52,403 nucleotides of DNA from a candidate division WWE3 bacterium (lineage in GTDB: Bacteria > Patescibacteriota > WWE3 > UBA101185 > UBA10185), in contig JAAZNL010000016.1 in assembly GCA_012798315.1 (NCBI GenBank), positions 1 to 52,403 on the forward strand, written 5' to 3'. Shown here piece after piece: positions 1 to 34,198 of this stretch. A program made the position numbers and the translations under genes. Under the pieces are notes generated by a model. That model did not search any database. It had not been told where the DNA came from and saw nothing but the letters and a program-made list of their open reading frames with translations. Each line of letters opens with the position of its first letter. The first letter of the stretch is position 1.

Positions 1-3000
1 TCCAGCTTTGATAATAATTGCTACCCCTAAGATTTATCAAATTTTTAAATAATGAGTCTACTTTTTTCGAATATTCAAAACTACAAAGGATGTCCACAGC
101 CAGTATCAAATCATCACCAAGCAACAAACCTTTCGGATAAGTTACTATTTTCTGTAACCATATAAGAAACTCGTCGGAACCTTCAGTCTTATAAATCACT
201 TCAAGAACTTTACCATTGTGGTGATATGGCCACCAATGCATTTCTACAAAATTCTGATCATTCACATTTTTGGATAGGAATGCTTTTTCTTTTCTAATAC
301 AGGCCTTCCATAAGAGTAGACACTCTGTAGGTTTAGTTTCTAGATGCTCATCAATAAAATAGTAAATCCTTGAGTAAACCTCATGGTCGTAGTTTCTAAT
401 AAGGTACTTGAAATATCGTATTGAGATTGCAAAATTAGTTGCAAAACCTGCACCTGATTCTTTCGGGAGTTGCCAAAATTGCCATGCAAAATCAGCTCGT
501 ACATCTGAAGACGATGTTAGTAACAGTTTTTGAAGCAGTTTTTTAAATGGCTTGTCGTTAAATTTTTGCAAACGTAACCATTCCTTTTCGCCGTAAGCAT
601 CCTTATATCTTATATCCTTTACTGCTTCTTTCCTGAATTCCGCAAAAAAAACAAATAAGGATTTGCTTTCCTCCAGTATTTTGTCATCTTCTGTGTTTAT
701 GAAAATACTTAATACTTCCAAAGCATCTTCTGTAGAGAGTTTCCTTATGTGAGAAAAAACATGCACCAAAGCAAGCATTACTTGATGCAATTTTAAGTTT
801 TCAGGGTTTCTAAGGGTTGTGAATGCTAAAGTTTCAATTCTGTACGCTGTATCTATTGAGATAAATCGCTCGCGGGGATTTCCCGGTATAAAAGTATGCC
901 TATTCATTACAAATTGTTCGAGTGCGTTACACGCAAAAGACCGGACATAGAAGTTAGGATCATTAACTAGTGTTTCAATTAACGGCAAAGCATCTTCGAT
1001 ATATTTTCGACCATTTAAGACACAAATATGTCTAAGTAGCCAACAAACCCATACGCGAACACTGGTAATCTGATTTGTATCCTTTCCCGCGATTACTTGT
1101 TTATGAAGGTTGTGTTCACCATTAGGATCATCTGGTTCATTTTCAACAATTGGATCTGGGTCATTAATGAATAATTTAGCTATGCGAAGCGCTTCAACGT
1201 AATAGCCAGTCATCGCCAATTTTTCTCCAAATTGTACGAAAGCTTCTCTACAAGAACTTTGTGGTATACGCTCACATAAAGTAGATATTGAGGGATACTG
1301 AACTAGCCATTTATCTAACAAATCACCGTAAATTTTAGGAAGAAGTTTTCCATCGGAGCTTTCAAAATGACTAAATACGCTTGTAACTGCTCGTTGTTGG
1401 TTTTCAGTTAGGATGGAGTCCTTCCATATCTCTTGAAGCATACTCAACCCTTCGGAATAATCGATACGAATAACTTGAGTTATGGCTTTAGCTACATCCC
1501 AGATTTCAAACATACTTAATGTATTTTTGAAAAATTCGCTATTCAAAAATGTACGCAACAAAGTAATACCGCTACGCCTCGTAGCGTCATTAGATATTAA
1601 GCTAAAAACAGAATCTGTTATATTCCGATCAAGAAATCTGGATCTATTGTTGTATTCAGCATCCTGAGACCATCTAAATAATATTTCTAAAGCATCGCTA
1701 TTTCCTTTACTGGCCTCATCTGTAACAAGTTGTTCTACAAAGATATTCGCAGGTAATCCTTTATATATAGGTATTTTTAGTTGTAATACTGTAACTTCCC
1801 ATTTTAACTCACTTGGTATCTGAGAGTTTCTTAGTTCTTGAAAGATTAAATCCGTTTTATGAGGAATTCCTTGTCTCATTTCCATAAAATCCTTAAGTAT
1901 TTCCAAAGCTATATCCTTTTTAGTTTGATCAGCTAAAGCTAATACTATAACTGGAATAAAGGCTCTGTTTATATAATCTGGATTATCGCGGCAAACATTT
2001 TTTTCAAGTCTAATAATTGTTTTTTGTACAAACGCCCAAGCTTTTTCTGAGTCTGAGGCATATAATTCCTGAAATAACGAGCTAAGGACATTAGTAACAA
2101 AATGGTTATCTGAAACATGAAAGCAACCGCCAGAATTAGAGATCATTCCGCCCATGTGTTCCCAACCTACAAACTTTAGACCTTTTCCAAACCTTCCATA
2201 GTGTTTATCGTACTGGCTGTTAATTAGGTTTATAAAATCCCTTAAGGTCTTTTTAATATCAATTGAATACTCGCGCTTTACAATCTCAAAAATGTCTTTT
2301 GGGGTATCGTGCCAGTAGTTTCCTTGGTCTGACACAAGATCAAACGTCTCCACTACATATTTAAATATAGCCTTTCTAAGCTGGGTGTCATTACTGTCAA
2401 CGTAAATGTCTTTTAAACATTTGCAAATATGCTCAACTTCCCACGCATTGTGATCTCCTCTAGAATAACTGTCTGAATTATATTGATGTCTCTCGCACCG
2501 GTCATCTAATAAAAGTTTAACTAATTCAAACAGCTGCTCACTATAAGAAACATTAGATTTTAGTAGTAAACCAATAATATCGGATACTTCATTCCTAAAA
2601 AAATCCATCCTGAAGAAGTTAATATAGGGACTCTTTACAATATCTGGTAATAACTCCAAGAGATATTTTTGATTTTTAACCATTCCTATATTATTTTTAA
2701 AAACATCAAATGCTTTATGGTAGAAAGGTCCAGAAAGTGCGGCTCTCCACAAATTATTCCAACTCCTAAGGTTAATATTTTTTAGTCCTTCTAGTTTTTC
2801 AAGTACCAAATAATATATTTCAGGATTATTTGTAAGACTTGTTATGCTATTTTTGGACCACGCGATACTTTGTGGTTTTTTCAAAGCATTTAGTGCATCC
2901 TCTACGTTTTTATATATGTTCTTCTTTTCTGTTAGATAGCCTGTATCTTCGGTTAACTCCTTCACACGAGTAGTTATTTCAGACATTAGACTATTTCTTG

Positions 3001-3556
3001 TTACTATTTTGCTTTTTTCCGATCCAAAATATATCTTTTGAAGTACATAGCTATCTAAAATTTCTTCCATATTTTTTGTAGGAAGCCATACTCCGATAAT
3101 AGGTGCAAAAAATGAAATCGCGAGATTTCTGCTTATATCCACATCTGTTTCCCAAAATTTCAATCTGGAAAATAGTTTTATTTCAGCTTCACTAAATTTC
3201 TTCTTTTTTAGAACTCTAAGTATTTCCTCTCCAAAGTAGCGGTAGTTTTCTGAATCATTTTTAACTCTATCTTTTGTAGATTTACAAATAATCAACAACT
3301 CGTCTAATTCTGAAACTTTATTAGATTTTGCCAACTTACTCAAAATCTTCTTTACATCATAATAACCAATTGAATAAGCTTTGACCTCACATATAACTTT
3401 ATGCGAATCATTAAATACTAGATCAAAATCCTGAAGATTTGGTTGCTCCAAAGCAATATAATTAAAATCTGGATATCTTAAATTTTGTAAAAACAAGGAT
3501 ATTGCAGCCCACGCTTGATTATTTATTCCCTTGAAAGTACTAGTACCACCTGTCAT
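1..3556 (-). CDS. Giant protein (at least 1185 codons, truncated by window edge): N-terminal PD-(D/E)XK-like nuclease domain followed by long helical/HEAT-like region
   Basis: Manual reverse-strand translation from ATG at 3556..3554 stays open to position 2. Frame was checked at 2155 and at 4. N-term MTGGTSTFKGINNQAWAAISLFLQNLRY...LQDFDLVFNDSHKVICEVKAY has a D...EVK nuclease-like core. Further on, ALPLIETLVNDPNFYVRSFACNALEQF is HEAT-repeat-like. Missing from the ORF track because its stop lies outside the window. Confidence 0.8.
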   Translation of the reverse strand, partial: MTGGTSTFKGINNQAWAAISLFLQNLRYPDFNYIALEQPNLQDFDLVFNDSHKVICEVKAYSIGYYDVKKILSKLAKSNKVSELDELLIICKSTKDRVKNDSENYRYFGEEILRVLKKKKFSEAEIKLFSRLKFWETDVDISRNLAISFFAPIIGVWLPTKNMEEILDSYVLQKIYFGSEKSKIVTRNSLMSEITTRVKELTEDTGYLTEKKNIYKNVEDALNALKKPQSIAWSKNSITSLTNNPEIYYLVLEKLEGLKNINLRSWNNLWRAALSGPFYHKAFDVFKNNIGMVKNQKYLLELLPDIVKSPYINFFRMDFFRNEVSDIIGLLLKSNVSYSEQLFELVKLLLDDRCERHQYNSDSYSRGDHNAWEVEHICKCLKDIYVDSNDTQLRKAIFKYVVETFDLVSDQGNYWHDTPKDIFEIVKREYSIDIKKTLRDFINLINSQYDKHYGRFGKGLKFVGWEHMGGMISNSGGCFHVSDNHFVTNVLSSLFQELYASDSEKAWAFVQKTIIRLEKNVCRDNPDYINRAFIPVIVLALADQTKKDIALEILKDFMEMRQGIPHKTDLIFQELRNSQIPSELKWEVTVLQLKIPIYKGLPANIFVEQLVTDEASKGNSDALEILFRWSQDAEYNNRSRFLDRNITDSVFSLISNDATRRSGITLLRTFLNSEFFKNTLSMFEIWDVAKAITQVIRIDYSEGLSMLQEIWKDSILTENQQRAVTSVFSHFESSDGKLLPKIYGDLLDKWLVQYPSISTLCERIPQSSCREAFVQFGEKLAMTGYYVEALRIAKLFINDPDPIVENEPDDPNGEHNLHKQVIAGKDTNQITSVRVWVCWLLRHICVLNGRKYIEDALPLIETLVNDPNFYVRSFACNALEQFVMNRHTFIPGNPRERFISIDTAYRIETLAFTTLRNPENLKLHQVMLALVHVFSHIRKLSTEDALEVLSIFINTEDDKILEESKSLFVFFAEFRKEAVKDIRYKDAYGEKEWLRLQKFNDKPFKKLLQKLLLTSSSDVRADFAWQFWQLPKESGAGFATNFAISIRYFKYLIRNYDHEVYSRIYYFIDEHLETKPTECLLLWKACIRKEKAFLSKNVNDQNFVEMHWWPYHHNGKVLEVIYKTEGSDEFLIWLQKIVTYPKGLLLGDDLILAVDILCSFEYSKKVDSLFKNLINLRGSNYYQSW

Positions 3557-4449
3557 ACAGTATTACCCCCTTCTAGAAAACTTACTGTGGTATTAATAGA
3601 GCTAGACATAACAGGCAATTGACCTTTCCATTTCTGAAAAACTTCTACCATCTCAGAATTTATAGTATGAAAAATCATAGTAGGATCGCGCTTTATTAAT
3701 CTCCTTCTCGTAAAAAACTCCGTGATACAGTTGTCTAGGCATTCAGTGAGATTTTCAGCCGTACCTACCTTATGAGTCATGGTTTGAAGTAATGAATGAT
3801 ACAACAGTGATGGCGGTAATTCGTATTCAAATGCATCTACTTTAAATACATAATTCATTTCTCTCAAAATAGCAATAATTTGGTTATCCATGGGGCTACA
3901 GTTGGTCTCATCACCATTAAGAGCATCGCTATAACTATCGGATATATGAATCTGAACATTTTTGAATAATTTATATAACTTCTTGGCATCTGTTAAATCC
4001 TCAAGGTTTAACAATTTTGCAAGTTGCTCACATGAATTAACAACCGCACCTTGATAGGCGGAACTACATTCTATCGCCTGAATAAAATTCCAATAATCAG
4101 AAACTTTTCCTTTTAATTCTGGACTTAACACGATCGCACTGAGTATATTTGTTTTACCTGTACAGTATTCTTTTATGTTAAACACTGCTTCTCGAATTTC
4201 AGAAGTACCTTTGTACTTTTTATCTGTTTTAAAACCTTGACCAGTTTTTACCTCATATACGGTCTCCAATACTTCCCCATCAACTTCTTGGATAAGACGA
4301 ATATCAATAGATTTTTGTGAATTTGGCAGCGGGTAGTCAACATAAAACTCAAGTACCTTCTTACGACCCTGTAGCAGGGTAAGGTACTGTAACAAAGCGA
4401 ATTTATCTTGATAAATAAAACCAAGTCGAGTTGCTCTTATGCTTGACAT
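3553..4449 (-). CDS. Cap4/DUF4297-like dsDNA nuclease-domain protein (~298 aa)
   Basis: RATRLGFIYQDKFALLQYLTLL...KSIDIRLI...VYEVKTGQGF: GFxYQ helix plus D...EVK core. ATG at 4449 preferred over the TTG at 4455 used by the track. Stop TGA overlaps the next gene's ATG (ATGA). Confidence 0.65.
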   Translation of the reverse strand: MSSIRATRLGFIYQDKFALLQYLTLLQGRKKVLEFYVDYPLPNSQKSIDIRLIQEVDGEVLETVYEVKTGQGFKTDKKYKGTSEIREAVFNIKEYCTGKTNILSAIVLSPELKGKVSDYWNFIQAIECSSAYQGAVVNSCEQLAKLLNLEDLTDAKKLYKLFKNVQIHISDSYSDALNGDETNCSPMDNQIIAILREMNYVFKVDAFEYELPPSLLYHSLLQTMTHKVGTAENLTECLDNCITEFFTRRRLIKRDPTMIFHTINSEMVEVFQKWKGQLPVMSSSINTTVSFLEGGNTV

Positions 4450-4508
4450 ATTCAAGGTTATTATAACTCTTAATCGTTCAGTTTCCGTATTATCTTCGTG
4501 TATTTACC

Positions 4509-4553
4509 AAAATGGAACACTCCCTTTTTATACTGTCCCATTTGTTCCATTTT
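4509..4553. promoter_or_regulatory. Inverted repeat AAAATGGAACA...TGTTCCATTTT upstream of the nuclease operon (possible operator)
   Basis: Perfect 11-bp arms at 4509-4519 and 4543-4553. A related half-site (TGTCCCATTT) lies just inside the right arm. Confidence 0.45.
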
Positions 4554-4621
4554 TATCCCAGAGAGTATAATTTTTGAGGTGGGGTTCTAGACCGACATGC
4601 TTCACCAGAATTTATTTTTAC

Positions 4622-4658
4622 CCTATAGTTTGGCATATTTTCGTTTTTATAGTAAAAT
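4622..4658 (+). promoter_or_regulatory. Sigma70-like promoter with CCTATAGT box: CCTATAGTTTGGCA-N17-TAAAAT
   Basis: -35 TTGGCA 4630-4635, 17-nt spacer, -10 TAAAAT 4653-4658; preceded by CCTATAGT. Confidence 0.7.
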
Positions 4659-4733
4659 ATCCGCATCAATAACAGGACGTAGCAAACCTAAACTACAAAG
4701 CTATATAAGTCTATCATCAAAAGGAGAAAACTG

Positions 4734-5324
4734 ATGGACACTATTGCGATCAGCAGAGATGATGCTGAAAAGTATGGTTGCCCATACTGCGGCTACCAAT
4801 CCGGGTTCAATCACGTGTCGGGACGGGGCGCATCGGTTATTACCTGCGGCGAGTGTAAACAATGCTTCATTGTCCTCTCCCCAGGCGTCAACGTTTCGCC
4901 ATTTGGCATCGAATCGGGCAAAGGGCAGAAAGTTTACCCCAAGCTTTCCGAACACCCTCGCAAGGGAACACCAAAGCACGGCGCCCCGGACAAGCGGCCT
5001 GAAAAGGGAGGCGAGTTCTTTCACTCACGCGGTATCGGTCTTGATAACTGCATCTGTTTTGTGTGCGGCACCAGAGACCGGACTGGCAGGGGGCACTTCT
5101 GTCTGAACAACATCGCGGCTTTCGTCACTTGCAAAGCGGCAGGTGAAAGGGTTGTTGCAATGTTTGGACGCGGAGCACGGCTGGATTATCGCGAACGAGA
5201 ACCTGACCGCGTGCAAGTCAAAATCGGCGCCTGCGACAAACATCTTTCCAACCTGAAAAAGCTGGAAAAGCTTACCGAAAACGGCGTCATCACAGAAGAC
5301 ATGGTCCGTCAAGCAGGTGGCTAA
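4734..5324 (+). CDS. Orphan protein with two zinc-ribbon-like Cys clusters (cassette A)
   Basis: SD AAAGGAGAA before ATG. CPYC...CGEC and CFVC...C motifs. GC-richer than its surroundings. Confidence 0.75.
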   Translation: MDTIAISRDDAEKYGCPYCGYQSGFNHVSGRGASVITCGECKQCFIVLSPGVNVSPFGIESGKGQKVYPKLSEHPRKGTPKHGAPDKRPEKGGEFFHSRGIGLDNCICFVCGTRDRTGRGHFCLNNIAAFVTCKAAGERVVAMFGRGARLDYREREPDRVQVKIGACDKHLSNLKKLEKLTENGVITEDMVRQAGG

Positions 5325-5335
5325 TCCTTCTTAAA

Positions 5336-5381
5336 AATGGCACCTCATGGTATAGAGAAATCTAAATCATTGGGTGCCATT
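5336..5381 (+). terminator. Terminator-like hairpin AATGGCACC/GGTGCCATT
   Basis: Inverted repeat just after the cassette A stop; weak T tail. Confidence 0.55.
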
Positions 5382-5454
5382 CCTCTTTAAGTATTCCTTT
5401 CGTTTCATATTTAAATTTACCTACCATTATTAAGATATAATCCATGTAAGTTCT

Positions 5455-5973
5455 ATGAATAATTTAATTTACCTATTTATCTTAATATTAGCTTTATTAG
5501 GATACATAATTTTTATTATTTTTCCCCTTTCTAGGGGTGCTCCCTATGTGCCAACCAGCCAAAAAACCATAATGTCTCTGATAGAAATACTAAACGGATA
5601 CGGAGTTGCTAGTTTTAAAAAAGCTGTAGATCTGGGCTCAGGTGATGGCAGAATAATTATTGCTTTATCTGCAATCGGATTAAGTTGTGACGGTATCGAA
5701 CAAAACAAACTGCTTTTTAAGCTTTCAAAGAGAAAACTTAAAAATTTGAAGTTACTAAATATTAGCAATGTTTTTAACACAAACTTCTTAAAATACAATT
5801 TATCAGATTATGATCTTGTTACTCTCTTTCAAATTCCCTATATTATGCCAAAACTTAAAAATAAACTGCTTAAAGAGCTTAAACCTAACTCATTAATATG
5901 CAGTTATAGTTTTAAAATACCAGGTTTAAATGAGGTGCAAGAGCATAACGGCTGGTACGTGTACAGGACATAG
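5455..5973 (+). CDS. Membrane-anchored class I SAM-dependent methyltransferase
   Basis: N-terminal TM helix; AVDLGSGDGRIIIAL motif I. Confidence 0.75.
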   Translation: MNNLIYLFILILALLGYIIFIIFPLSRGAPYVPTSQKTIMSLIEILNGYGVASFKKAVDLGSGDGRIIIALSAIGLSCDGIEQNKLLFKLSKRKLKNLKLLNISNVFNTNFLKYNLSDYDLVTLFQIPYIMPKLKNKLLKELKPNSLICSYSFKIPGLNEVQEHNGWYVYRT

Positions 5974-6031
5974 AAAAACAGACTCGTAGTTTATTAGCTA
6001 AGGACAATAACTCATTCTAATACCTGTATAT

Positions 6032-6068
6032 CCTATAGTTTGCTAGTTTTCTGTAATTAGTGTAAAAT
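6032..6068 (+). promoter_or_regulatory. Sigma70-like promoter with CCTATAGT box: CCTATAGTTTGCTA-N17-TAAAAT
   Basis: -35 TTGCTA 6040-6045, -10 TAAAAT 6063-6068, 17-nt spacer. Confidence 0.7.
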
Positions 6069-6146
6069 AGTTGTATCGACAACAAAAGTAGCCAAAATAC
6101 CGGTTACAAGTTATCCTAACCTATCGTGTAAAAAGGAGTATGGAAG

Positions 6147-6923
6147 ATGGATGCGCATTACTTGGAGGTTCTTGTGCTAATTGCACGAGATGTTCATGGA
6201 TTTGCTTCAAAGCTTTGTAGCGCGATGGAAACATACGCCTACGTGGCCGTTGCCTCCTTTGATCAGGCCCAAAACGTTATTTCATATGGCAACTGGGCCG
6301 GAAATGTGCCGAATGACATTGTGTCTCGGGCGCCACATGCTGCCTACGGCAAATTGGGTGAACTGGTGTTACAAAGGGCCGGCATCGATGGAAAGCTTAT
6401 TATGACCCCAACCGCGGGCAACGATTTGAGCTTTCACTGGATGGGGGCAGTTGCGCAAAATGGATTTATCATCGCCGTGAGCAAGTGGGCACAAGAGCAC
6501 GATCGTCTATTGGCACTACTGACTCTCTACAATTACGTTCATCACACGCTCAAACTGCATCATGTTGGTTACCGATTTCCAAACCGGAAAGAGTACGTGA
6601 TCGCTAACTCGCGCTTTGGTAATGGCATCCGTCTGGACGCCGTCGATCACATGCGCACGTATTTCCCAACGGAAGGCGATTACTACCGGGAACACCAATG
6701 GTTTCCCGAGGGACCTTACGATGAAGCGCGACACTGGGACTTTGTCACCGACGAGCCCGAGGACCTGCTTAACTTCCTCGCAGCTGCCTACGGTCAGTCC
6801 CCTGTGTTCTTCGACGATGCTGGCAAAAACGATCCTGTCGGCGTTGTTTGGGTTAATGCGGAAGACGGCACCAAGCTCGGTGTTATGGCCCGAAAAACCT
6901 GGTGGAAAGTAGGAGAAATTTAG
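6147..6923 (+). CDS. Orphan hypothetical protein, 258 aa (cassette B)
   Basis: SD AAAAAGGAGT; own promoter and terminator; GC-richer. Confidence 0.7.
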   Translation: MDAHYLEVLVLIARDVHGFASKLCSAMETYAYVAVASFDQAQNVISYGNWAGNVPNDIVSRAPHAAYGKLGELVLQRAGIDGKLIMTPTAGNDLSFHWMGAVAQNGFIIAVSKWAQEHDRLLALLTLYNYVHHTLKLHHVGYRFPNRKEYVIANSRFGNGIRLDAVDHMRTYFPTEGDYYREHQWFPEGPYDEARHWDFVTDEPEDLLNFLAAAYGQSPVFFDDAGKNDPVGVVWVNAEDGTKLGVMARKTWWKVGEI

Positions 6924-6943
6924 ACCAGGATTGCATTACAATT

Positions 6944-6993
6944 GAGGCGATTTTTTACAGGCTTACATAGCTGTGGAAATCGCCTCTTTTTTT
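6944..6993 (+). terminator. Intrinsic terminator GAGGCGATTT/AAATCGCCTC-T7
   Basis: 10-bp stem followed by a T run. Confidence 0.85.
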
Positions 6994-7028
6994 GTGACGA
7001 TTTTGCGAGTTCCATTACCTCGTAGTCT

Positions 7029-7705: not shown

Positions 7706-8023
7706 TTACGAAAACGTTACGGAATGCGAAAGACTATTAATTAATCTGGTTTTTTCTTCAGGACTTAAATTTGGATTTAAAAGTCTATTCATTGTTTTGG
7801 CCGCCGTTATAATATGCTCACCGCGTGTATTCATGATCTGACTCAACGATATTCCTTCATACGTAAAATCAACAAAATTTTTGGTATTAAGCCAAATGTC
7901 TATAACAGAACCCAAGTCATCGTAAAGCTCCGGGTAATCTTCTAGTAATAAATTTATATCCTGTTCTTGATAACCTTCACTAATCAATATATTTTTTGCT
8001 TTTGTTTTATCTATTAAATACAT
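7706..8023 (-). CDS. Hypothetical protein, 105 aa, co-operonic with the 2H phosphoesterase
   Basis: Same strand, 8-nt gap to the downstream 2H gene. Confidence 0.65.
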   Translation of the reverse strand: MYLIDKTKAKNILISEGYQEQDINLLLEDYPELYDDLGSVIDIWLNTKNFVDFTYEGISLSQIMNTRGEHIITAAKTMNRLLNPNLSPEEKTRLINSLSHSVTFS

Positions 8024-8132
8024 AATGTGATGATGGAAGATTCAAACACATAAGTCAATGAATAATACAAAAATATTGTGCGGTAAGAAACATATCATAT
8101 AATTACTTAACCCTAAAAACCGGAGAGAGATC

Positions 8133-8456
8133 ATGAGATATGATGACTGGCAGTGCGAGGTTTTGGAGGATATTGCTCTGGAAGTTAACAGTTATAATCC
8201 ACTGGTCAGAGAAAACGTCCGATACTCCGAGTTTGTGAGCAAATCACAAGGACGAGGACGTAAACGGCGCAGAGAACGTGAGATTAGACTGGTAACCTGG
8301 AGAGGAAAAACATGGTCAATTGGAAATCGTCTTACACAAGGACTTGAGTTTTTGATGCAGGATATATTTCCCGAGGAAATGGCTATGAATTCCGAACTGG
8401 ATTGGCTTGCCGCTTTTTTGGAAGCCCTCCGAAACCTTCCAAAAAACCGCAAATGA
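8133..8456 (+). CDS. Orphan basic protein, 107 aa (cassette C)
   Basis: SD GGAGAG, upstream TTGTGC-N16-TATAAT, downstream hairpin. Confidence 0.65.
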   Translation: MRYDDWQCEVLEDIALEVNSYNPLVRENVRYSEFVSKSQGRGRKRRREREIRLVTWRGKTWSIGNRLTQGLEFLMQDIFPEEMAMNSELDWLAAFLEALRNLPKNRK

Positions 8457-8493
8457 TACCCGGTTATTGTCTTTAAAGATGGTATCCGGGTAT
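8456..8493 (+). terminator. Terminator hairpin ATACCCGG/CCGGGTAT
   Basis: Inverted repeat followed by TTGTTTTCTTTTT. Confidence 0.7.
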
Positions 8494-8534
8494 TTGTTTT
8501 CTTTTTCGCCTATTTGAGGGTATAATTCCCTGTC

Positions 8535-10346
8535 ATGGAATTGCGAAATGTTGCCATTATAGCTCATGTTGACCACGGAAAGACCACCCTTGTTGATGGT
8601 CTGTTAAAACAATCTAAAACATTCAGAGAAAATGAATCTTTAATGTCCCAAAATTTAATAATGGATTCAAACGATCAGGAAAGGGAACGTGGGATAACAA
8701 TTTTAGCTAAAAACACCGCAGTTAACTACAAAAATTACAAAATAAACATTATTGATACTCCCGGACATTCAGATTTCGGCGGAGAAGTTGAAAGAACTTT
8801 GAACATGGCTGACGGTGCTTTATTACTGGTAGATGCCCAGGAAGGTCCGATGCCGCAAACAAAGTTTGTTTTAAAAAAAGCTCTCGAAATCGGACTTAAA
8901 ATTATCATTGTAATAAATAAAATTGATAAAAAGGATGCCCGAATTGATGACACCATCCGCCGGGTACATGATTTAATACTTGAACTGGCAACAGAAGATT
9001 CTCAGTTAGATACGGTTATAATTTACGCCATAGGCCGTGAAGCTAAAGCCTGGAACGATTTACCTTCCGATTACATTGCGGAAGCCGATTTAACACCCGT
9101 TTTTGACGCAATTATCAAGCATATTCCGGCTCCTACGGTAGACCATGACTCACCTTTTCAAATGCTTGTTTCTACCTTGGACTGGGATAATTTTAAAGGA
9201 AAATACGTAATCGGCCGTGTCAAACGGGGTAACGTCTTTCCAGGAATGCAGGTAACTTTACTTAAAGCAGATGGCACAAACGAAAACTATACTGTAGATA
9301 AAGTTTACGTGAACCAAGGATTAAAACGTGTTGAAGTAGAAAAAGGTGAATCAGGAGATATTATAGCTCTTACAGGTATAAAAAATGCCGGAATCGGAGA
9401 TACTGTTTCTGACGCCGGTAACCCGGAAGCTCTTCCCACAATAAAGATAGAAGAACCCACACTTAGCATGTCCATAGGACCAAATACTTCTCCTTTTATG
9501 GGTAAAGAAGGAAGGTTTTTAACCGGAAGACAGATTTTAGAAAGAATTGAACGGGAAATGCAAACTAATGTTGCAATGAGATTCAAAATAACCGAGGAAG
9601 GTCAATACGTAATTTCAGGCCGAGGAGAACTACACTTGTCCGTGCTGTTAGAGACAATGCGAAGGGAAGGGTTTGAAATGGAAGTAGGAAAACCAAAAGT
9701 AATAATTAAAGAAATTGACGGGATACAGATGGAACCTGTTGAGGAATTAACTATAGATGTCGATAACGAATACTTAGGTGACGTGAAAAGCGAAATAGGC
9801 AGAAGACGCGGAATTTTGGTGCGACAAACCGAAGAGACCCAGCACTCCACCAGATTATTATTTGAAATTACTACAAAAGGAATTTTGGGTTTAAGGGGAG
9901 CTTTACTGACAATATCTAAAGGAACTGCGGTTATGAGTTCGAGTTTCTTACGCTATGATCCAATAACTCCCGACATCAAGAAACTTAGAAGAGGCGTCTT
10001 AATAGCAGCTGAAACGGGTAAGACGGCATCTTACGGATTAGCTTCCGCGCAGGAAAAAGGTTCAATTTTCGTTGGACCTCAGATTCAGGTATATGAGGGA
10101 ATGATTGTAGGTATGAACGGACGGGACGAAGATTTAGAAATAAACGTCTGTAAGGAAAAACAATTAACAAATAACAGATCCGTTGGGGAAGAAGGAATTA
10201 TGCTAACTCCCCCGCTAATTATGAGTCTCGAACAATGCATAGGGTTTTTAGAAGACGATGAATTGCTAGAAATTACTCCACAAAATCTTCGTTTAAGAAA
10301 AAAGATTTTAGAAAAGACAGCCCGATATCGTGCTAATAAAAAATAA
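8535..10346 (+). CDS. typA: GTP-binding protein TypA/BipA
   Basis: RNVAIIAHVDHGKTTLVDGLL, DTPGHSDFGGEVER; full length with typical C-terminal domain. Confidence 0.97.
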   Translation: MELRNVAIIAHVDHGKTTLVDGLLKQSKTFRENESLMSQNLIMDSNDQERERGITILAKNTAVNYKNYKINIIDTPGHSDFGGEVERTLNMADGALLLVDAQEGPMPQTKFVLKKALEIGLKIIIVINKIDKKDARIDDTIRRVHDLILELATEDSQLDTVIIYAIGREAKAWNDLPSDYIAEADLTPVFDAIIKHIPAPTVDHDSPFQMLVSTLDWDNFKGKYVIGRVKRGNVFPGMQVTLLKADGTNENYTVDKVYVNQGLKRVEVEKGESGDIIALTGIKNAGIGDTVSDAGNPEALPTIKIEEPTLSMSIGPNTSPFMGKEGRFLTGRQILERIEREMQTNVAMRFKITEEGQYVISGRGELHLSVLLETMRREGFEMEVGKPKVIIKEIDGIQMEPVEELTIDVDNEYLGDVKSEIGRRRGILVRQTEETQHSTRLLFEITTKGILGLRGALLTISKGTAVMSSSFLRYDPITPDIKKLRRGVLIAAETGKTASYGLASAQEKGSIFVGPQIQVYEGMIVGMNGRDEDLEINVCKEKQLTNNRSVGEEGIMLTPPLIMSLEQCIGFLEDDELLEITPQNLRLRKKILEKTARYRANKK

Positions 10347-10366
10347 CTGGTTGCAAAGTCCGAAAA

Positions 10367-11644
10367 TTAGTATTCCACTAATGTAAGAGCGATACCTTTT
10401 TTATCAGCCCTACCGGTTCTCCCAATTCTATGTACATATGCTTCGTATGACTCAGGCATGTCGTAGTTAATAACATGTGACACATCTTTAATATCTAACC
10501 CTCTGGAAGCGACGTCTGTAGCCAATAACACTTTAATTTCGTTTGTTTTAAATTTCTTTAACGCTAACTGTCTTTGAGCCTGACTTTTGTTACCATGAAT
10601 TGCTTCTGCTTTATGTCCTTTTTGAACTAAAGCATCTGCTAATTTTTGAACTCCCCACTTGGTACTTCCAAAAACCAAAACTTTTGCACATTCTTCAGTT
10701 AAAAGTATTTGGTGCAATGTTTCCAACTTTTTTGTTCCACCTCCAAAGACTCTCACAATTTTTTGCTCAACATTAACCGCTGTTTCTTGCTTTTTTACAC
10801 TAACAGTAACAGGATCCTGAACAAACGATTGTAGTATTTCTTCTACTTTCGGGGAAACAGTGGCTGAAAAAAATAAGGATTGCCTGTTTTTAGGCATTAA
10901 AGAAATGAAAAGTTTTATATCAGAAATAAACCCAATATCAACCATTCTGTCAGTTTCATCCAAAACCACTGTGTTGTAATCGCTTATTCTAATCGCTTTT
11001 TGTTTTAATAAATCCTTTAATCTTCCGGGTGTTGCAATTACAAACGAAGGCTGTTTTTTTAGTTCAGTTTTTTGTCGTTCTATATTTGCTCCACCAATTA
11101 AAACCGCGGAATAAATTCTCATATCTGTAGAGTAACTGCGGAATTCTTCATATATCTGAACAGCTAATTCTCTTGTAGGAGTTAAGATTAAAACTTTACG
11201 TGACCTGTCCCGGGATACACGTTCTATTAGAGGTATTAAAAAAGCCGCGGTTTTGCCTGTACCTGTGTTGGCTATACCAATAATGTCCCTGCCGTTAATA
11301 ATTGCCGGAATAGTTTTATCCTGAATCGGTGTAGGGCTCGTGTATCCTTTGGTTACAATATTTTGCTTAAGTTTAGGAGATATTTCAAAATCGTTAAATT
11401 GATGTTTCGGTATATAGGAAGTCTCTTCAGGCTGTTCAAAGGGTTGAGTTTTTTTCAGATCTTGGATGACTTTTTCCAATTCGTATATAGGCCAGGTTTT
11501 TTGACGATTACTTCTACCACCGCCAAATCCTGATCTGTTGTTACTTCTATATCCTTTGAAAGTTCCTGTATTCATGGAACCTCTAAACGAACGTCCACCG
11601 GACGCACTTCTTGACCTGCTTCTATTTTCATTGCTATATGACAT
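10367..11644 (-). CDS. DEAD-box RNA helicase
   Basis: GTGKTAAFLIP, VLDETDRM (DETD variant of DEAD), SAT, HRIGRTGR. Confidence 0.93.
   Translation of the reverse strand: MSYSNENRSRSRSASGGRSFRGSMNTGTFKGYRSNNRSGFGGGRSNRQKTWPIYELEKVIQDLKKTQPFEQPEETSYIPKHQFNDFEISPKLKQNIVTKGYTSPTPIQDKTIPAIINGRDIIGIANTGTGKTAAFLIPLIERVSRDRSRKVLILTPTRELAVQIYEEFRSYSTDMRIYSAVLIGGANIERQKTELKKQPSFVIATPGRLKDLLKQKAIRISDYNTVVLDETDRMVDIGFISDIKLFISLMPKNRQSLFFSATVSPKVEEILQSFVQDPVTVSVKKQETAVNVEQKIVRVFGGGTKKLETLHQILLTEECAKVLVFGSTKWGVQKLADALVQKGHKAEAIHGNKSQAQRQLALKKFKTNEIKVLLATDVASRGLDIKDVSHVINYDMPESYEAYVHRIGRTGRADKKGIALTLVEY

Positions 11645-31966: not shown

Positions 31967-34198
<2,232 letters not shown>

Follow-up and report, generated by a model that had tools for sequence, protein, structure and literature searches.

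The 52,403-nucleotide contig of a candidate division WWE3 bacterium analysed here (the window; contig JAAZNL010000016.1 of assembly GCA_012798315.1) carries at its left end, on the minus strand, a gene for a 298-amino-acid protein overlapped by a gene for a giant protein of at least 1185 amino acids. This pair probably represents an undescribed two-component defence-type system, in which a constant HEAT-solenoid sensor or scaffold is combined with an interchangeable nuclease effector. As judged from sequence relationships among the loci compared, the giant is the fixed, family-defining part, and the nuclease encoded upstream of it is exchangeable and of at least four types. The features of the pair are as follows.

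3553..4449, minus strand: small partner gene, encoding a Cap4-like PD-(D/E)XK nuclease of 298 amino acids (type A partner); from the open reading frame (ORF) beginning with the ATG at 4449, the structure model and homologues.
4246..4305, minus strand: predicted catalytic motif of the partner, D49 (4305-4303) ... E66-V-K68 (4254-4246), invariant in 7/7 homologues.
3553..3556, minus strand: ATGA stop/start overlap (TGA of the small gene, ATG of the giant gene), seen in the sequence.
2..3556, minus strand: giant gene, from the ATG at 3556 through 1185 codons without a stop, open at base 1; from the ORF and full-length homologues.
3092..3556, minus strand: giant residues 1-155, restriction-endonuclease-like domain; from AlphaFold2 secondary structure, motif conservation and hhalign comparison with Cap4-type partners.
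2..3000, minus strand: giant residues ~186-1185, HEAT-type alpha solenoid; from AlphaFold2, Foldseek and Pfam HEAT.
1799..2239, minus strand: giant residues 440-586, the core that the most distant relative retains, with motifs GWExMGG, DRHF, PDxLNRA and KGIPHK.
3566..3574, minus strand: putative Shine-Dalgarno-like AGAAGGGGG, about 9 nucleotides 5′ of the giant ATG, recognised from its letters only.

An earlier sequence-only reading of this DNA had described two minus-strand ORFs, of about 298 amino acids and at least 1185 codons, joined by an ATGA at positions 3553-3556, and all of this is present in the sequence. If the small gene instead began at the TTG at 4455, it would be two codons longer. 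The contig (C44, one of 71 in an 899-kb genome that is 98.6% complete) is the entire window, and its end truncates the giant about 5-40 codons short of the expected stop, so that, measured against full-length homologues of 1157-1224 amino acids, about 97-99% of the protein is present. The giant frame is evidently not a product of chance, because relatives occur in six other genomes of the phylum, and in five of these the protein is full length, with 30-35% identity.

The exchange of partners was examined across 22 giant loci including the window, together with a distant 735-amino-acid relative in L016; duplicate loci had been removed (L011 = L018, L012 = L024, L013 = L031). The partner tally covers 20 pairs, as L017 has no partner and L022 is cut. 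Seven pairs have the window-type partner (type A: the window, L015, L019, L020, L033, L042, and L043), which in each case lies directly upstream of the giant. Six have an AlbA_2/Schlafen-type partner (type B: L018, L021, L023, L026, L028, and L032), an assignment supported by an SLFN_AlbA_2 match in L011 and by the match of the type B profile to a Schlafen in the PDB. Three have a PF14130 partner (type C: L024, L029, and L030; over the cut-off in L012, L029, and L030), and the remaining four have other PD-(D/E)XK-like partners, recognised by motif (type D: L014, L025, L027, and L031). In L029 (7112-9119), an ORF read as a Vsr-like endonuclease and a KAP-type NTPase lie directly upstream of the type C partner and the giant.

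When the partner labels were placed on the giant tree, 12 changes were counted versus 12.8 with shuffled labels, a near-random value; partner type therefore does not follow giant descent. Giants that are 85-92% identical bear unrelated partners, namely a type A Cap4-like protein (L020), a type C Cap4-like protein (L024), and a Schlafen (L032). Between L020 and L032, the hsdR-hsdM genes share 83% DNA identity and the giant 81%, with differing hsdS genes and partners (type A versus Schlafen); the giant of L024, with the third partner type, is 87-92% identical to those of the other two. Identity is lost near the partner start codon and returns no more than about twelve codons from the giant start. 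Such near-identical giants with unrelated partners beside the same restriction-modification (RM) genes constitute a natural effector-swapping experiment, through which the docking interface and the sensed signal become testable. The pairing of a Cap4-like protein with a giant proposed in the sequence-only reading stands, with the correction that the Cap4-like protein is interchangeable with at least three other partner types, so that the system is defined by the giant.

In the distant L016 locus (7907-11118), a 337-amino-acid protein with HG...SCC motifs precedes the 735-amino-acid giant relative. These motifs hint at a CHAT-type protease, an identity for which searches of Pfam and the PDB gave no confirmation; if it is correct, the range of effectors would be wider than nucleases.

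The linkage between the two genes is tight. The window-type partner profile found matches in 3/388 phylum genomes, every one adjoining a giant and none solo, in agreement with the co-occurrence expected from the earlier reading. All eight giants (8/8) in these genomes have a same-direction gene immediately upstream; in one pair (G137), both proteins are divergent. Partner and giant are separated by -23 to +17 nucleotides in 20/20 pairs, with the 4-nucleotide overlap in 9/20.

The small protein of the window had been called Cap4-like from its letters, and structure prediction agreed. The best PDB matches of its AlphaFold2 model, built from four sequences only and of modest confidence (predicted local distance difference test score, pLDDT, 65), were Cap4 (6wam/6wan/6vm6), Avs3 (8dgc), HamA of Hachiman (8zue), and LmuA of Lamassu (9nxx/9hr5). 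A GFxYQ-type N-terminal helix is followed by a restriction-endonuclease-like core with a D...(E/Q)xK motif. Profile searches bore out the suggested family in part: the window proteins gave sub-threshold matches only, and PF14130 (Cap4_nuclease) exceeded its curated cut-off in type C partners. The window partner itself had no PF14130 match, and its homologue in L020 stayed at E = 0.13. PADLOC gave weak LmuA matches, sub-threshold for the window proteins, and a weak HamA match for one partner only. The small-protein profile also hit Tako8, a designed protein, over a 28-residue stretch with no domain passing; these hits were set aside as an artefact of composition.

The N-terminus of the giant also has the features of a PD-(D/E)XK nuclease. 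Its secondary structure in the AlphaFold2 model (H8-25 E31-36 E44-48 E53-59 H65-78 E86-91) runs in the order alpha-beta-beta-beta-alpha-beta, and the predicted catalytic residues are D43 (3430-3428) and E57-V-K59 (3388-3380). E37, D43, and K59 are invariant in 21/21 giants having the domain and E57 is replaced once, by Q; the nuclease motifs quoted in the sequence-only reading are therefore conserved in both proteins. Pfam assigns no family to this domain. In hhalign comparisons, the giant N-terminus matched the PF14130-positive partners at E = 6e-5 and the window-type partner at E = 3e-4; the three comparisons among these groups gave 6e-5, 3e-4, and 8e-4, and their D and K motifs fell into a common register. 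Two control comparisons of unrelated partner types gave E = 0.55 and 0.46. Both window proteins therefore carry related nuclease modules, as had been supposed.

The rest of the giant (residues ~190-1180) is an all-helical solenoid in the AlphaFold2 model (16 sequences; pLDDT 78.9, predicted template modelling score, pTM, 0.54), in keeping with the HEAT-like unit noticed earlier. Pfam HEAT matched residues 857-883 at E = 2.4e-4, slightly below its curated cut-off, and Foldseek returned CAND1, importin-beta, and transportin from the PDB; no specific eukaryotic relative is claimed, the TM-scores being low and the E-values generic for HEAT. Residues 440-586 are the sole stretch of the giant common to the distant protein in L016 and may form a sensing or docking core. 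Pfam found no ATPase, NTPase, or helicase domain in the window giant, and no Walker A motif was present in any of the 22 giants. For either window protein, Pfam, NCBIfam (June 2026), and PADLOC reported nothing above thresholds, with sub-threshold HEAT, LmuA, and OloA matches only. The OloA match (E = 0.0022) falls on helical repeats of the giant and does not recur in the other giants scanned; for these reasons homology to OloA was not accepted. Because the giant family has no significant profile matches apart from the sub-threshold HEAT, current defence finders miss the system.

RM genes of type I, IIG, or III lie upstream at 10/22 loci. The type I neighbours are hsdM-hsdS-hsdR (L015; hsdS called by profile together with an N6_Mtase match, hsdR by reading), hsdR-hsdM-hsdS (L020 and L032), and hsdS-hsdR (L025). 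Eco57I-type methylases (type IIG) precede the pairs of L018, L014, L033, and L042; an N6/N4 methylase with ResIII (type III-like) precedes that of L023; and a partial type IIG-like end, judged from its tail motif only, precedes that of L024. The other loci adjoin serine recombinases or unremarkable genes. Across the eight giant-bearing phylum genomes (about 8.3 Mb), 4 of about 13 N6_Mtase ORFs lie within 6 kb of a giant, versus about 0.15 expected by our own arithmetic.

In the window, no RM gene occurs on the other, non-truncated side of the pair, and on the truncated side the contig stops within the giant, which hides any RM context. The statement that no methylase is nearby thus holds for the readable side and loses its force as an argument about layout, since the contig break conceals the other side; the further claim that the pair fits no RM layout is not concludable from a truncated locus, and relatives are often inside RM operons. 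The sole N6_Mtase match in the genome is on contig C42 (2285 bp, hsdM, repeat-like ends), which may be contamination, and no link between the ends of C42 and C44 was found when the missing flank was sought.

Whole-genome searches covered two overlapping draws and found giants in 6 further genomes among 294, and in 8 among 388 of the phylum. A scan of genome contigs with the giant alignment yielded 17 loci, some of them in records named Deltaproteobacteria, Syntrophaceae, Armatimonadetes, Margulisbacteria, and Elusimicrobia. Several phyla besides Patescibacteria are therefore represented, which shows a spread between distant lineages. Part of these contigs are short and possibly misbinned; the Deltaproteobacteria contig (L026), at 646 kb, is not short. 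The scan favours giants with the nuclease domain because its patterns lay in the nuclease motif. Single-sequence scans detected no small protein in viral contigs and no giant in genome contigs, and the giant alignment had no matches in viral contigs. The small-protein alignment matched one viral contig, which nearly duplicates the G203 locus and has hsdM-hsdS-hsdR immediately upstream. Very small Patescibacteria genomes retain a 4.5-kb two-gene nuclease module.

Two loci depart from the common arrangement. L017 (1213-9059) encodes a giant with no partner gene and with serine-recombinase-like ORFs on both flanks, and the giant of L042 (8057-11041), downstream of an Eco57I/N6 methylase, lacks residues matching profile positions 1-216 and keeps a window-type partner. 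By reading, serine-recombinase-like ORFs were also identified near L012, L013, L023, L027, and L043; such neighbours suggest carriage on integrative elements.

In the mechanism that we propose, the giant would be the part that stays constant, a sensor or scaffold built as a HEAT solenoid and carrying an N-terminal Cap4-type nuclease domain, and the co-translated upstream gene would supply the interchangeable nuclease effector, in the window a second Cap4-like DNase. The two proteins would most likely form a complex that is silent before a trigger. The solenoid may bind an infection signal, such as a phage protein, a DNA end, or a sign of a blocked neighbouring RM enzyme, upon which the nucleases would degrade DNA (Cap4 and restriction-endonuclease types) or RNA (Schlafen types), and the infection would be aborted or the foreign DNA cleared. 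Several observations weigh against a two-component defence system of this kind. The models are of modest confidence (giant pTM 0.54; partner pLDDT 65), too low to define the arrangement and interface; no homologues were found in plasmid or phage records by tblastn; at least eight loci have no adjoining RM genes; and L017 and L042 indicate that neither nuclease is strictly required. A more specific form of the proposal is put forward tentatively, as less likely than not. In it, the giant, among these data best represented in Patescibacteria, would be a HEAT-solenoid receptor that needs no ATPase and has a Cap4-type nuclease built in. It would license any of several nuclease cassettes unrelated to one another (a DNase, a Schlafen RNase, or, in a distant branch, perhaps a CHAT-type protease) and would guard the RM operon in which it is often found.

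Guarding of RM enzymes, a special case of the two-component system, would mean that the pair does nothing as long as the linked RM enzyme is functional, and is activated once that enzyme is blocked by a phage inhibitor. PrrC next to EcoprrI and PARIS with BREX or RM are precedents of this type, and an ATPase-free receptor class would join the theme known from them. Genes of type I (L015, L020, L025, and L032), IIG (L014, L018, L033, and L042), or III-like (L023) systems immediately precede the pairs, and backup nucleases including Schlafens adjoin BREX (PMC12839542). The linked RM types are, however, mutually unrelated, which makes one direct protein contact unlikely; RM genes are missing beside L021, L026, L030, L031, and L043; and the position could stem from clustering in defence islands. 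On balance, we regard a guard function as rather unlikely.

The operonic methylase linkage and the PD-(D/E)XK class of most partners are also what would be seen if the giant and its partner formed an accessory restriction endonuclease that directly cuts unmodified DNA beside the linked methylase. We consider this improbable, as restriction of DNA is not typical of Schlafen-type partners, an ATPase motif is absent, and a single giant family accompanies type I, IIG, III, or no methylase. A toxin-antitoxin-like unit, with the upstream nuclease as toxin and the giant as its inhibitor, would account for the small upstream gene with its overlapping start, the swappable toxic domains, and the existence of a solo giant (L017) beside the lack of solo window-type partners in 388 genomes, but is a poor prospect, as the giant's own nuclease motif is conserved in 21/22 giants, which is odd for a pure antitoxin, and one giant family would need to neutralise unrelated folds.

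Other observations in the window concern the surroundings of the pair. The GC content is about 0.30-0.37 across the pair and up to 0.44-0.48 in parts of 4456-7000 just upstream, where a divergent zinc-ribbon-like ORF lies at 4734-5324 on the plus strand; this region appears mosaic. Elsewhere, one 462-codon frame reads as atpD (ATP synthase beta; 31967-33352, minus strand). It is intact except that an in-frame TAA interrupts it once, in place of the Q that is normally conserved in 'FRD-Q-G-x-DVLLFID'. The probable cause is either a point error or a genuine nonsense mutation, and a split of this kind was seen in none of the window's other long genes.

No published description of the giant with such partners was found, which is weak evidence since the literature covered omits most subscription papers and preprints. 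RM-linked backup modules such as PrrC and RloC in hsd operons are known, and effector swapping on a fixed receptor is seen in Lamassu, Avs, and OLD-ABC systems. Lamassu (LmuA-LmuB-LmuC; PDB 9nxx, 9hr5) resembles the pair in having a Cap4-fold nuclease, LmuA, and variable effectors. The pair has neither an SMC/ABC ATPase (LmuB) nor LmuC, and the protein that stays constant is a HEAT solenoid that itself bears a nuclease domain; with LmuA alone resembled, and no ATPase match or Walker A in the giant, membership was rejected. Avs/AVAST likewise combines a giant sensor (Avs3), an N-terminal Cap4-type nuclease, and a repeat solenoid, and the small partner matches 8dgc. Here, however, the second nuclease is a separate, swappable gene, and the pair was not placed among Avs/STAND systems, the window giant having no NTPase match and the 22 giants no Walker A. 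Hachiman (HamA-HamB; HamA, 8zue) and HerA-DUF4297 share the two-gene design of a Cap4/DUF4297-like nuclease with a large partner, but the large protein here is neither a helicase nor a HerA ATPase; assignment to Hachiman was discarded on the missing helicase domain and a weak HamA match confined to one partner. The nuclease fold, and PF14130 over its cut-off in some partners, recall CBASS Cap4; membership was dismissed because SAVED was absent from all scanned partners and no cyclase was recognised in neighbourhoods whose ORFs were read and in part profiled. Finally, BREX-adjacent backup nucleases, Schlafens included, and OLD-ABC with alternative nucleases have been described, and the pair is similar to PARIS and OLD-ABC as an RM- or BREX-linked backup module with a fixed sensor and an exchanged nuclease (PMC12839542). 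It differs from them in having no OLD-ABC or other ATPase and in its unrelated constant protein; the new finding is that a family with exchangeable nucleases and frequent RM linkage is defined by the giant and not by the Cap4-like protein.

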